Assembly: GCA_902557775.1 (NCBI GenBank)
Contig: CACEBD010000003.1
Span: forward strand, 1 to 64,000
Source of the DNA: an uncultured Pelagibacteraceae bacterium
Lineage (GTDB): Bacteria; Pseudomonadota; Alphaproteobacteria; Pelagibacterales; Pelagibacteraceae
Reading direction: 5' to 3'
DNA length: 64,000 bases
Shown: piece by piece, positions 8,912-54,732 of the stretch
How the letters are laid out: every line of letters starts with the position of its first letter
Position numbering within the stretch: position 1 is the first letter of the stretch
Notes under the pieces: generated by a model
Seen by the model: the letters and a program-made list of their open reading frames with translations, nothing else
Databases searched by the model: none
What the model was told of the DNA's origin: nothing
Position numbers and translations under genes: made by a program

Positions 8912-10204
8912 TTAAGCAGCTAAAGCTTGCTTGATATCTGCAACAATATCGTCCGGGTGTTCAATACCAATCGATAATCTGACATAACCTGGTGTAACAC
9001 CAGCAGCTAACATTTCTTTCTCTGTAAGCTGACTATGCGTTGTTGTTGCTGGGTGAATTGCTAAACTTCTAGCATCACCAATATTTGCTACGTGGTAAAG
9101 CATTTTTAAGTTGTCAATGAACTTAGCACCTGCTTCTTTTGTTCCTAGATCCATACCTATTAAAGATCCATAACCACCTTGCATATATTTTTTAGCTCTA
9201 TCTCTAATTTCACCTTGATAATTAGTTGGATAGATAACCTTTTTAACTTTTTTGTGACTATCTAAGAAATTCACAACTTTCTCTGCATTGCTACAATGTT
9301 GTTTCATTCTTAAAGCTACAGTTTCCAAACCTTGAATGATTTGAAAAGCATTGAATGGACTTAATGGAGCTCCTAAGTCTCTCAATAAAACCACTCTTGC
9401 TCTGATGACAAATGGGATATTAGCACCAGTTAATTGTGGAACTGCATCCGCCCAAACTGCACCATGATAACTTTGATCTGGCTCATTTAATAGAGGTTGT
9501 CTTTTTCTATCTTTAATCCAATCAAAATTTCCTCCATCTACAATTATTCCTCCAATTGAAGTACCATGACCACCAATATATTTCGTCAAAGAGTGCATTA
9601 CGATTGCAGCTCCATGAGCTAAAGGTTTACATATAACCGGTGAAGCTGTGTTATCGATAATTAAAGGAATACCTTTTTTTCTACCGATATCAGAAACTTC
9701 TTTAATTGGAAAAACACGAAGATATGGATTTGGAAGAGTCTCACCATAGTAAGCTCTTGTCTTATCATCAGTCACTTTTTCAAAGTTTTTTGGATCTGCA
9801 GGATCTGCAAATCTAACTTCAATACCTTGTTGTCTTAAGGTATTTTTAAATAAGTTAACTGTACCTCCGTACAAATCAGTCGAAGCAACAATGTTATCTC
9901 CAGCTTGTGCCAAGTTTTGTATGCACATTGCTGAAGCTGCTTGACCTGATCCCACCGCGCATGCTGCTACACCGCCTTCAAGCGCTGCAACTCTTTTTTC
10001 TAGCACATCAACCGTTGGGTTCATTATACGTGTGTAAATGTTACCAAACTCTTTTAGACCAAATAAATTTGCAGCATGTTCTGCATTTTTAAATTGGTAA
10101 GAAGTTGTTTGATAAATAGGAACTGCTACGGCTGTTGTAGTAGGATCAGATCTATAATCACTACCATGTAAGCCAATAGTTTCTGGATGTTTAAAATCAG
10201 TCAT
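8912..10204 (-). CDS. metY: O-acetylhomoserine (thiol)-lyase / homocysteine synthase
   Basis: A 430-residue PLP enzyme of the Cys/Met metabolism family. The PLP lysine is Lys208 in HSLTKYIGG. MetY makes homocysteine from O-acetylhomoserine and sulfide or methanethiol-type donors in the cytoplasm, feeding methionine and SAM synthesis. The start at 10204 has an AGGGGG ribosome-binding site (10212-10217) 7 nt upstream. The 300-bp leader carries two SAM aptamers, a terminator and two tiny overlapping ORFs, the last of which overlaps this start by 8 nt (ATGACTGA). Expression should therefore fall when SAM is plentiful. Confidence 0.95.
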   Translation of the reverse strand: MTDFKHPETIGLHGSDYRSDPTTTAVAVPIYQTTSYQFKNAEHAANLFGLKEFGNIYTRIMNPTVDVLEKRVAALEGGVAACAVGSGQAASAMCIQNLAQAGDNIVASTDLYGGTVNLFKNTLRQQGIEVRFADPADPKNFEKVTDDKTRAYYGETLPNPYLRVFPIKEVSDIGRKKGIPLIIDNTASPVICKPLAHGAAIVMHSLTKYIGGHGTSIGGIIVDGGNFDWIKDRKRQPLLNEPDQSYHGAVWADAVPQLTGANIPFVIRARVVLLRDLGAPLSPFNAFQIIQGLETVALRMKQHCSNAEKVVNFLDSHKKVKKVIYPTNYQGEIRDRAKKYMQGGYGSLIGMDLGTKEAGAKFIDNLKMLYHVANIGDARSLAIHPATTTHSQLTEKEMLAAGVTPGYVRLSIGIEHPDDIVADIKQALAA

Positions 10205-10244
10205 TGATTTTCCCCCTTACTGTTTCTCTTATCGTTTCGTTCAT
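10197..10244 (-). CDS. Candidate leader ORF 2 upstream of metY (15 codons)
   Basis: An ATG-initiated frame of 15 codons (MNETIRETVRGKIND) whose stop codon overlaps the metY start as ATGACTGA. Its own ATG overlaps the stop of leader ORF 1 (ATGA, 10241-10244). The start lies inside the 3' arm of a 14-bp hairpin (10238-10276), so it would open only when that hairpin is disrupted. This looks like a translational relay rather than a functional peptide. No homology can be checked here. Confidence 0.45.
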   Translation of the reverse strand: MNETIRETVRGKIND

Positions 10245-10276
10245 TTTTTCTCCATCTTTCTGGAGAAGAATGAACG
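10238..10276 (-). promoter_or_regulatory. Hairpin sequestering the leader ORF 2 start
   Basis: On the minus strand, CGTTCATT (10276-10269) pairs with AATGAACG (10245-10238) and TTCTCC (10267-10262) pairs with GGAGAA (10253-10248), with a small 1x2 internal loop and an 8-nt terminal loop. The 3' arm contains the ATG of leader ORF 2. The same 5' arm can alternatively pair with the ribosome-binding site and start of leader ORF 1 (10301-10289). Confidence 0.55.
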
Positions 10277-10294
10277 AAAATTAATTCTGTTCAT
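10241..10294 (-). CDS. Candidate leader ORF 1 under the SAM-V ribosome-binding site (17 codons)
   Basis: A 17-codon frame, MNRINFRSFFSRKMEKK, begins 3 nt after the AAGGAGAAG element that ends the SAM-V aptamer. This is therefore the start codon the SAM-V switch would control directly; metY itself starts 90 nt further on. The stop overlaps the next small ORF (ATGA). The peptide is basic with no Met/Cys bias that would suggest a classical attenuator, so coupling of translation to metY seems more likely than a sensing peptide. Confidence 0.5.
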   Translation of the reverse strand: MNRINFRSFFSRKMEKK

Positions 10295-10297
10295 CTT

Positions 10298-10362
10298 CTC
10301 CTTTTTAGTACTTCGGCATATGCCAGGTGTACAATATGGTTCAAATACCCGGTTTAATTTCA
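10298..10362 (-). ncRNA. SAM-V riboswitch (metY leader, second aptamer)
   Basis: Reading the minus strand downstream of the terminator, the core runs from about TGAAATTAAACCGGG, through GTATTTGAACC, TGTAC and a GGCATATGCC hairpin, to GAAGTACTAAAAAGGAG. The GTAC/GTAC pairing, the GGC/GCC hairpin, and the A-rich strand merging into a Shine-Dalgarno sequence match what I recall of SAM-V. SAM-V is a variant class described in SAR11 and marine metagenomes that hides the ribosome-binding site when SAM is bound. Identification is by eye without a covariance model. Confidence 0.75.
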
Positions 10363-10371
10363 GATTTTTCC

Positions 10372-10400
10372 AAAAAAAAACCACCGGCTAAAGCGGTGGT
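10372..10400 (-). terminator. Intrinsic terminator controlled by the SAM-II aptamer
   Basis: A 7-bp perfect stem, ACCACCG (10400-10394) with CGGTGGT (10386-10380), is followed by a run of nine T (10380-10372), counting the last stem base. Its left arm and loop contain CGCTTTAGC (10395-10387), the exact complement of GCTAAAGCG (10423-10415) at the end of the SAM-II aptamer. Aptamer and antiterminator are thus mutually exclusive: bound SAM should free the terminator to form. Confidence 0.88.
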
Positions 10401-10413
10401 CTAAATGACTTGT

Positions 10414-10466
10414 GCGCTTTAGCAGGATTTATAAAGCGCCCGCAAGTTGCCTTAACTCAGCGCTAA
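10414..10466 (-). ncRNA. SAM-II riboswitch (metY leader, first aptamer)
   Basis: The minus strand shows the compact SAM-II pseudoknot signature: AGCGCTGAGTTAA, then TTGCGGGCGCT, TATAAAT and TGCTAAAGCGC. The helix AGCGC/GCGCT and the conserved ATAAAT and GCTAAA segments match alphaproteobacterial SAM-II RNAs found upstream of methionine genes. It begins within a few bases of the predicted transcription start and is followed directly by an intrinsic terminator, so it probably acts on transcription. Confidence 0.92.
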
Positions 10467-10470
10467 AAGG

Positions 10471-10507
10471 TTTATAGCAAGAAATTCAGGAATTTGTCAA
10501 CTGTCAA
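10471..10507 (-). promoter_or_regulatory. metY promoter with doubled -35 box
   Basis: On the minus strand the sequence TTGACAGTTGACA (10507-10495) gives two consensus -35 hexamers one base apart. The second is 18 bp from TATAAA (10476-10471). The first hexamer begins immediately after the gshB stop codon. The predicted start is near 10464, at the 5' edge of the SAM-II aptamer. Confidence 0.75.
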
Positions 10508-53071: not shown

Positions 53072-53226
53072 GGAGAGTCCTTTGCGTAACGGGAGAGACC
53101 ATTTAGGCGCCGAAGGAGCAACCACCCCGGAAACTCTCAGGCAAAAGGACCGTTACCGTAATAACTCTGGAAAGCAGGCAAAAGCCTCACCGAAGGATTA
53201 AATCTCTCAGGTACATAGACAGATGG
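53072..53226 (+). ncRNA. Tandem glycine riboswitch upstream of gcvT
   Basis: Two glycine aptamers in series. The first has GGAGAGACC, GGCGCCGAAGGAGCAA and AACTCTCAGGCAAAAGGACCG, closed by TAACGG/CCGTTA. The second has ACTCTGGAAAGC, AGCCTCACCGAAGG and ATCTCTCAGGTACATAGACAG. These are the classical gcvT-type motifs. Downstream, AGAGTTATT just before the gcvT ATG is complementary to AATAACTCT at the entry to aptamer 2, suggesting control of translation rather than termination (no terminator is seen). Confidence 0.95.
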
Positions 53227-53244: not shown

Positions 53245-54339
53245 ATGGAAGTACAAAAAACAGCTTTATACAATTATCATAAAAATTTAGGAGCAAAGTT
53301 TGTTCCGTTTGCTGGCTACGAAATGCCTATTCAATATAAAGATGGTATTGTTAAAGAACATATTTCTACAAGAACACACGCTGGATTTTTTGATGTCTCA
53401 CATATGGGGCAATTTTTTTTAGAAGGGGACGAAACATTAATAGAGTCATTAGAGAAAATTATACCAGCAGATTTAAAAAATTTGAAAATTAATCATTCAA
53501 AATATTCTTTTTTACTTAATTACGAAGGCGGAATAATTGATGATTTAATTATTACGAGAACAGAAAAAGGTTTTTGTATAATCTTAAACGCAGCTTGTAA
53601 GGAAAATGATATAAAACAAATTTCTCAATTTTTAAAAAAACATCATAAACATCTTTTAAACAACGATTTATCTTTAATAGCGTTACAGGGACCTAAATCT
53701 GTAGAGATTTTAGAAAAATTAATTCCGGGCGTTGCTAATTTAAAATTTATGACAGGAAACAATTTTGAGTATGAAGGTGAAAATCTATATGTAACAAGAT
53801 CTGGGTACACAGGTGAAGATGGTTTTGAAATTTCAATTTCAAACACAAAAGTTGAAAAGCTTATTGATTACTTAATTTCAAATGAAGTTAAACCGATAGG
53901 TTTAGGAGCTAGAGATACATTAAGATTAGAAGCAGGTCTGTGTTTATATGGTCATGATTTAAATGAAAAAATAAATCCAGTAGAGGCTAATTTAAAATGG
54001 GCTATAGCAAAAAAAAGGAAAGAAGTAGGTGGCTTTAATGGATGGGAAAAAATAAAAAATTTATTAGCTAACGGAAGTGAAAAAATTAGAGTTGGCATAA
54101 AACCAGATGGAAAAGTTATAGCTAGAGAAAATACGAAAATCTTTTCGTCAGACAATAATGAAATAGGATTCGTTACTAGCGGCACTTTTGGTCCAAGTGT
54201 GAACGCTCCAGTTGCAATGGGATATGTTAAATCAGAATTTTCTGAAGTAGGTACATCTATTCAGCTTGAAGTAAGAGGAAAAAAATATGGGGGTAAGATT
54301 TCTGAACTTCCATTTTATAAAAAAAGTTATGTTAAATAA
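53245..54339 (+). CDS. gcvT: Glycine cleavage system T protein (aminomethyltransferase)
   Basis: A 364-residue GcvT. The N-terminal FVPFAGYEMPIQYKDGIVKEH and FDVSHMGQ, then GYTGEDGFEIS and GLGARDTLRLEAGLCLYGHDL, are family signatures; the catalytic Asp is in the GARDTLR region. It transfers the methylene group of glycine from H protein to tetrahydrofolate, releasing ammonia. Translation begins 5 nt after a weak AAGAG ribosome-binding site that can be masked by the riboswitch. gcvH follows after 12 bp. Confidence 0.96.
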   Translation: MEVQKTALYNYHKNLGAKFVPFAGYEMPIQYKDGIVKEHISTRTHAGFFDVSHMGQFFLEGDETLIESLEKIIPADLKNLKINHSKYSFLLNYEGGIIDDLIITRTEKGFCIILNAACKENDIKQISQFLKKHHKHLLNNDLSLIALQGPKSVEILEKLIPGVANLKFMTGNNFEYEGENLYVTRSGYTGEDGFEISISNTKVEKLIDYLISNEVKPIGLGARDTLRLEAGLCLYGHDLNEKINPVEANLKWAIAKKRKEVGGFNGWEKIKNLLANGSEKIRVGIKPDGKVIARENTKIFSSDNNEIGFVTSGTFGPSVNAPVAMGYVKSEFSEVGTSIQLEVRGKKYGGKISELPFYKKSYVK

Positions 54340-54351
54340 GGGGAAACAAAT

Positions 54352-54732
54352 ATGAGTGAAAAAAAATTTTCTAAAAAACATGAATGGGTTTCACTAGATG
54401 GAGACCTTGCTACAGTAGGAATAACTAAGCATGCAACAGAAATGCTCGGTGACATTGTTTTTGTGGAGGTTCCTGATGCAGGTAAAGCTGTAGAAAAAGA
54501 AGGTCAAGCAGCTGTTGTAGAGTCTACTAAAGCCGCAAGTGATGTTTATTCTCCTATTTCTGGAGAAATTACTGAGGGAAATAAAGCCATTGCAGATGAT
54601 CCCGGGAGCGTAAATACTGACCCTGAAGGTGCTAGCTGGTTTTTTAAATTAAAGATCAAAGATAAAGGTGAGTATGACTCCCTAATGTCAAAAGACGAAT
54701 ATGATAAATTTTGTAAGGAGAATCCAAGCTAA
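54352..54732 (+). CDS. gcvH: Glycine cleavage system H protein
   Basis: A 126-residue lipoyl carrier protein. The lipoylated lysine is Lys60 in [14 protein letters not shown]. The family start [21 protein letters not shown] is intact. It shuttles the aminomethyl group between P, T and L proteins. GGGG precedes the ATG as a ribosome-binding site; gcvP begins on the next base after the stop. Confidence 0.97.

Follow-up and report, generated by a model that had tools for sequence, protein, structure and literature searches.

A SAM-V riboswitch upstream of metY in Pelagibacteraceae whose own Shine-Dalgarno sequence may act as a decoy

Which start codon does the Shine-Dalgarno (SD) sequence of a SAM-V riboswitch serve when the gene behind it begins far downstream? 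The question arises from a 64,000-nucleotide (nt) stretch of an uncultured Pelagibacteraceae bacterium (contig CACEBD010000003.1 of assembly GCA_902557775.1, positions 1 to 64,000; hereafter the window). Its minus strand, to which all positions refer unless noted, carries a SAM-V aptamer at 10295..10359 (Rfam RF01826, 72 bits versus a gathering score of 41) and metY, which encodes a 430-amino-acid O-acetylhomoserine sulfhydrylase (8912..10204; TIGR01326, 576.1 bits versus a cut-off of 495.1). The aptamer is the single RF01826 match in the bacterium's own genome (G000; 957,653 bases in 23 contigs, about 82% complete). In the SAM-V account of Huang and Lilley (2018), part of the SD is drawn into helix P2a with S-adenosylmethionine (SAM) and is free otherwise (PMC6061858; this and the other papers cited are drawn on from excerpts). 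At the window, the SAM-V SD (AAGGAG, 10298-10303) stands 93 nt upstream of the metY start, and the view of a preliminary description of the locus that it does not serve metY directly is supported. The answer we regard as rather likely is a switch of three segments, A, B and C, in which the SAM-V SD is an anti-anti-SD decoy, the real ribosome site lies downstream at C, and a short open reading frame (ORF) couples that site to metY.

Two small ORFs fill the interval. ORF1 (MNRINFRSFFSRKMEKK, 17 codons, 10241..10294) opens with an ATG (10294) 3 nt past the SAM-V SD, and its TGA overlaps the ATG of ORF2 (10244) as ATGA. ORF2 (MNETIRETVRGKIND, 15 codons, 10197..10244) ends in a TGA (10199-10197) that overlaps metY codons 2-3, the metY ATG lying at 10204. 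The preliminary description had given this layout, with the frames linked by ATGA and by ATGACTGA to metY, and its letters and coordinates are exact; it had further proposed that ribosomes admitted by SAM-V could be relayed through both frames. A two-ORF chain arises in 4.8% of 20,000 dinucleotide shuffles of the spacer, and an ORF2-like frame in 19.9%. Since the chain alone is not very improbable, its significance has to rest on relatives.

A profile search located SAM-V in 131 of 169 genomes of the genus, at 133 places. These are 69 loci with a window-like leader (type b, the window included), 41 direct loci in which metY starts 6-8 nt past the SAM-V GGAG, 18 loci in which a bhmT-like gene and 2 in which a metE-like gene intervenes between SAM-V and metY, 2 mmuM-like loci (L113, L140), and one further direct locus (L163) that the pattern missed and that enters no count; L144 was added by hand. 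The type-b loci represent 62 distinct leaders and 47 distinct stretches from A to C. Thirty loci of another genus (L002-L031), taken as the best-scoring matches and not as a random draw, were added to the comparison. By Pfam, the bhmT-like protein is a homocysteine S-methyltransferase (PF02574, 128.7 bits); its NCBIfam scores are under the cut-off, so bhmT is named here by place and resemblance. The metE-like protein had no Pfam match at 0.001, and its best NCBIfam match, B12-independent methionine synthase, is far below the cut-off (57.2 versus 576). Comparison across these loci shows the layout, two mutually exclusive predicted pairings and their conservation, the ORF2 frame with its stop, and the lack of conservation of ORF1.

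The two pairings share one strand. Segment A (GGAGAAGATGAAC, 10289..10301) holds the SAM-V SD and the ORF1 start and is the proposed anti-anti-SD, a mimic of a ribosome-binding site. Segment B (CGTTCATTCTTCTCC, 10262..10276) is the anti-SD strand, which can pair with either A or C, and segment C (GGAGAAAAAATGAACG, 10238..10253) holds the SD and start of ORF2, which would be hidden if paired with B. Among the 47 distinct sequences, A-B is paired in 99.3% of the cells compared and B-C in 96.7%, and the stems are preserved, most insertions, deletions and stops of ORF1 lying in the loops. A and C are both SD sequences and some pairing of A with B is expected for that reason alone; to discount this, A was shuffled outside the SD. 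In type b the A-B pairing gains -18.7 kcal/mol. Once the 14-nt extension is shuffled, the gain is -9.1, and 9 of 3060 shuffles did equally well; in the four other alleles jointly, 0 of 1080 did. The bhmT allele has different letters on both sides, GAUGAAAUC with GAUUUCAUC, and L038, L146 and L153 have other pairs again. In the folded alleles, the SD masked by B is that of the following frame (ORF2, bhmT or the metE-like gene); in type b the AUG is covered as well. Two hallmarks of an anti-anti-SD platform are present: a strand able to pair with the SD that serves the following frame, and, upstream, a competitor for that strand which is tied to the aptamer.

The predicted balance between the helices is close, with a median difference of 0.3 kcal/mol. 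When aptamer nt 60-61 were barred from pairing, the unpaired fraction of the ORF2 SD fell from 0.44 to 0.00 (medians, 52 sequences), and varying the barred bases (nt 59-60, 60-61, 58-61, 58-63) left the medians for the ORF2 and bhmT SDs at 0.00-0.01. AAGG (Rfam nt 58-61) was the first choice for the pseudoknot strand and was replaced, as the structure paper places only the start of the SD in P2a. Two other assignments for the hairpins were rejected. The B-C hairpin has no T-run after it and was dropped as an intrinsic terminator, and a MIR5298 match (28.4 bits versus a gathering score of 70) and other weak Rfam matches were taken as chance.

The same plan is predicted before bhmT in other SAR11. 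A contig profile search with the bhmT alignment was followed up in the best 80 of 484 loci, mostly titled SAR11; 62 of these gave an nhmmer match, of which at least two are not credible (L265, L274). Thirty-five of them, with L164, L184 and L186, make up a set of 38 leaders with spacers of 50-90 nt. L165, L172 and L173 were left out because the start motif was unmatched, and hand exclusion removed seven loci, of which six fell within the length range: L274 for want of a credible SAM-V and the others for a start codon close to SAM-V. Median SD accessibility in the 38 leaders drops from 0.76 when free to 0.01 with nt 60-61 barred, and in each of them A-B beats most A shuffles (at most 6 of 100 equal). 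Fourteen leaders, chosen because they could be aligned, show 8 of 17 A-B pairs altered on both sides, 89.4% pairing versus 82.8% and a covariation score of 0.311 versus 0.208, each reached in 0 of 500 shuffles; shifting the partner strand reduces both pairing and covariation. A wider alignment of 26 was judged misaligned and is not counted. In one genome (G011), A/B/C precedes bhmT (L164) and direct starts precede metY (L182) and mmuM (L189), these being the best three of its four SAM-V places; the three lie within the intervals given for HTCC1062. At L247 and L251, bhmT follows a SAM-II-type terminator alone, with its SD immediately past the T-run and no SAM-V by nhmmer.

Downstream of C, ORF2 is probably a real frame, an upstream ORF (uORF) coupled to metY, as judged from its conservation. 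It is open and ends at the same stop, 8 nt into metY, in all 62 distinct type-b leaders; in L143 and L155 it is one codon shorter with the frame kept. It recurs between the intervening gene and metY in 18 of 18 bhmT loci and one metE locus, that is in 19 of the 19 loci long enough to tell, out of 20, with the stop/start overlap made as TAATG instead in L146 and L153. The ratio of nonsynonymous to synonymous substitutions (dN/dS) is 0.54 for ORF2 and 0.39 for its codons 3-9 (47 distinct 45-nt copies, L143 and L155 omitted), compared to 0.06 for metY (40 of 65 distinct sequences). The overlapping part of metY also differs between leader types. In type b, codon 3 is always GAT (69 of 69 loci, versus 1 of 41 direct loci), and codon 2 ends in T in all 69 (GCT, ACT, TCT, AGT, GGT) versus 28 of 41, the T share at such codons within metY being 52%. 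The metY SD (AAGGGGG, 10212..10218) lies within ORF2, and a mini-hairpin, AAAATCA-ATGAC-TGATTTT (10193..10211), carries the metY start in the loop, with the ORF2 stop contained in the 3' arm. This hairpin, as AAAATCA-ATGNN-TGATTTT, is found in 61 of 64 distinct type-b stretches; its stem is partly explained by the coding sequence, and the AUG itself is predicted to be unpaired in the loop.

From these elements we infer a mechanism in which SAM would drive the exchange between A-B and B-C. With SAM bound, the start of A would be held in aptamer helix P2a, B would pair with C, and the ORF2 start would be hidden. At low SAM, A would leave the aptamer and pair with B once B had been transcribed, and C would stay open, making A-B the ON state. 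Because A-B is transcribed before C, it can form before C exists. The freed SAM-V SD strand in such leaders would thus go to B and not to a ribosome. Ribosomes starting at C would translate ORF2, open the mini-hairpin around the metY start as they pass, and re-initiate on metY where stop and start overlap, beside its AAGGGGG; translation of ORF2 would then be needed for metY. To compete for B, A must imitate C, and it therefore carries an SD and an ATG, which would leave ORF1 as a phantom.

Several observations weigh against this switch. In the window's own leader, the prediction favours B-C over A-B by 2.0 kcal/mol and leaves the ORF2 SD just 0.04 open even when A is free, so the ON state there would have to be kinetic, arising co-transcriptionally through the order of folding or through ribosomes on C. 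The SD of the genus bhmT leaders is likewise mostly closed at equilibrium (median 0.04 of 15), accessibility is 0.05 or less in 7 of the 38 other SAR11 bhmT leaders, and in those 38 the leader's own B strand is equalled in pairing by a median of 14% of foreign ones. Covariation within type b is slight for A-B (2 two-sided cells) and not above shuffles for B-C (123 of 500 as high), B hardly varying within type b; in the 14 aligned leaders, the number of pair types is not above shuffles either (206 of 500). The pseudoknot is beyond the folding method, and its effect was imitated by barring bases; dN/dS was counted pair by pair, on frames that are very short and share their letters with RNA stems. 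For the metY SD, folding predicts about half accessibility in every state, and the AUG sits unpaired in a loop, so hiding C need not silence metY. Finally, all rows of the genus that are of type b, bhmT or metE fall into a single clade, and counts across them are not independent events.

The MetY tree behind this last point was built by a quick method without bootstrap from 128 rows of the genus and 6 outgroup rows, L144 (frame break at 141 amino acids) and L154 (contig end) being omitted. The clade has an SH-aLRT (Shimodaira-Hasegawa-like approximate likelihood-ratio test) value of 98 and lies among the direct rows. Within it the b and bhmT labels alternate, with at least 10 changes of each forced by the starred branches, and identical MetY proteins are found with both labels. 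Some strains without bhmT at the locus share identical MetY with bhmT strains (e.g., L057/L125, L060/L095 and L094/L097), and the locus resembles a cassette exchange site. A search of the window's own genome for bhmT gave no match, an absence that its completeness of about 82% leaves undemonstrated. Aptamer nt 22 was considered as a marker of leader type, being C in all 89 A/B/C loci of the genus and T in all 71 direct loci, of which 41 belong to the genus and 30 to the other genus. The marker is not general, for T accompanies A/B/C at L215, and C accompanies a direct start at many bhmT loci whose aptamer carries TTTAACC; in the genus, where the A/B/C loci are one clade, the pattern may be a single event, and it was not used as evidence. 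At the mmuM-like loci L113, L140, L185, L187, L188, L190 and L191, SAM-V ends in GTGAGG or GCGAGG and not in AAGGAG, and at L189, differing from the other mmuM-like copies, in GTAAGGA; the start at mmuM-like loci lies about 10-13 nt past the G of the A-run.

The relay of the preliminary description offers another account of the same leader. Ribosomes would load at the SAM-V SD, translate ORF1 and thereby open the B-C hairpin, pass to ORF2 at ATGA and proceed to metY. Its second step, from ORF2 to metY, is supported by the frame and stop kept in 62 of 62 leaders and 19 of 19 loci. The first step fares worse. An ORF1 start codon is present in all 62 distinct leaders (61 ATG, 1 GTG; 68 ATG and 1 GTG over the 69 loci), and the exact ATGA hand-off is present in 42, to which 6 in-frame fusions of ORF1 with ORF2 may be added on the relay's side. 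The hand-off is lost in 20 of 62, these 6 included; in the other 14, ORF1 stops within five codons (5), stops inside ORF2 (3) or runs past the metY start (6). Breakage of this frame in close relatives is what the preliminary description had named as refuting its idea, and differing ORF1 states occur even within 7 sets of identical MetY proteins. The dN/dS of ORF1 is 0.95, and 3.6 over codons 4-8 (pairwise counting, 23 distinct open copies, 93-nt spacers only). The gap from SD to start is 3 nt for ORF1 in 69 of 69 leaders versus 4-8 nt in the 71 counted direct loci. The SAM-V-served bhmT start of L234, a locus outside the 71, also lies 3 nt from its SD, so such a gap may be usable, and the small ORFs of L235 and L255 start at the same distance; spacing is thus a mild argument against ORF1. 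In addition, the predicted fold encloses the SAM-V SD and the ORF1 start in a strong hairpin with B, an arrangement indicative of an anti-anti-SD and not of a ribosome loading site, and 27 of the 38 other SAR11 bhmT leaders have no ATG at any scanned offset 2-11 nt past the SAM-V GGAG, so the ORF1 start is not part of the general plan. A riboswitch-uORF-AUGA arrangement has a precedent (PMC11260477), which speaks for the relay. On balance we hold the relay to be unlikely. ORF1 was rejected as a coding frame on its frame breaks, stops and dN/dS, and is probably a by-product with no functional reading frame. The loci L235 and L255 have, upstream of bhmT, a SAM-V followed by an ORF of 45 or 48 codons (MSKMKYQVNNCS... 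and MSNTKYQVNNCS...) that overlaps the likely bhmT start. These are better candidates for a true SAM-V-served small ORF; A-B type complementarity is visible by eye in both, and the predicted fold agrees in L255.

A different possibility is that metY initiates mainly at its own AAGGGGG and is controlled mostly by an upstream SAM-II terminator, the A/B/C hairpins and ORF2 being minor or relics of a bhmT operon. The window has a SAM-II-like (SAM_alpha) aptamer at 10398..10473, the putative upstream partner of a tandem SAM-II/SAM-V pair, whose match is below the gathering score (RF00521, 23.5 bits versus 36, E 0.0029), and a SAM-II-associated terminator, clear from the sequence, at 10372..10400, 5' of SAM-V. 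A terminator pattern in this place is found in 66 of 69 type-b, 40 of 41 direct, 18 of 18 bhmT-type and 2 of 2 metE-type loci of the genus, and in 0 of the 30 metY loci of the other genus. The kept metY SD, its site predicted half open in either state, and the repeated swapping of b and bhmT alleles also suit this possibility. Against it, A-B and B-C are kept at 97-99% in the b allele, from which bhmT is gone, and no locus of sufficient length has lost the ORF2 frame or its stop; we give this account a small probability, much like that of the relay. The hairpins might instead act in RNA stability or processing, as two strong hairpins within a short leader could suggest. Against such a role stands the placing of B, which masks the next SD whether that belongs to ORF2, bhmT or the metE-like gene, along with the AUG in type b, and this role appears very improbable. 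The A/B/C switch coupled to metY through ORF2 is therefore preferred.

How far the A/B/C switch departs from known systems depends on the part considered. The SAM-V of the window belongs by Rfam score to the class of Huang and Lilley (2018), with an SD at the 3' end drawn into the SAM-bound fold and an OFF response expected (PMC6061858). In that excerpt the SD is the ribosome site of the downstream gene, whereas here the real site would lie about 45-50 nt downstream and be controlled through B. The same source assigns the probable SD to P2a in at least 86% of SAM-V, reports that removing 2-3 nt from the 3' end abolishes SAM binding, and measured a bhmT aptamer of 52 nt. The bhmT tandem of Pelagibacter ubique resembles the locus in having SAM-II and a terminator before SAM-V and a second switch that controls translation; unlike the reading given here, it is described in the excerpts as SAM-V controlling access to the ribosome-binding site (PMC9481103, PMC11508383). 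Direct occlusion, in which the SAM-V SD itself serves the regulated start, describes the 41 direct loci of the genus and does not describe the window. It appears likely, if held a little less firmly than the switch itself, that there are two mechanistic kinds of SAM-V, the second of which (bhmT in many SAR11 and ORF2-metY in the genus) uses the SD as a decoy anti-anti-SD, and that the published mechanism, including that of the bhmT switch, fits the first kind only.

Both halves of the proposed platform have counterparts elsewhere. In Escherichia coli btuB, the ligand also sets whether an anti-SD pairs with the SD or with an anti-anti-SD (PMC11162775); here the anti-anti-SD would consist of the SD belonging to the aptamer and an extension in which the target site is copied, start codon included in type b. 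The preliminary description knew of no such leader design in the riboswitch literature. A precedent exists in the B12 riboswitch of Mycobacterium tuberculosis ppe2, which controls a short ORF whose stop overlaps the main start and for which termination-reinitiation has been shown (PMC11260477, as excerpted). Ligand and aptamer differ from those of SAM-V, the SAR11 uORF (ORF2) also occurs after bhmT, and the SAR11 coupling is read from sequence alone. For SAM-V, no description of an anti-anti-SD strand, of ribosome-binding-site mimicry or of ORF2 was found in the excerpts searched of the SAM-V, bhmT and uORF literature, a search from which the original account of Poiata et al. (2009) is excepted. 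The combination of an A/B/C platform on SAM-V with ORF2 coupling is provisionally regarded as new, anti-anti-SD platforms and riboswitch-uORF coupling being already known.

Elsewhere in the window, on the plus strand, a glycine riboswitch (RF00504, 63.9 bits) lies at 53080-53162, upstream of ORFs 53245-54339 and 54352-54732, which we take from their sequences to be gcvT-like and gcvH-like, respectively.

SAM-V is a leading known sulfur-response switch of SAR11, and SAR11 are among the commonest cells in the sea. So far, models of its mechanism have let the ribosome bind at the SD of the aptamer itself. Should the A/B/C switch be right, control of bhmT, like that of metY in this genus, would act through a remote site, and its study would need constructs other than the short aptamers measured. 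An anti-anti-SD strand can also yield a small ORF that is convincing yet meaningless, which is a trap for the annotation of small proteins. Moreover, the repeated exchange of bhmT between SAM-V and ORF2-metY would provide a natural series on how control by a riboswitch is kept across a change of target.

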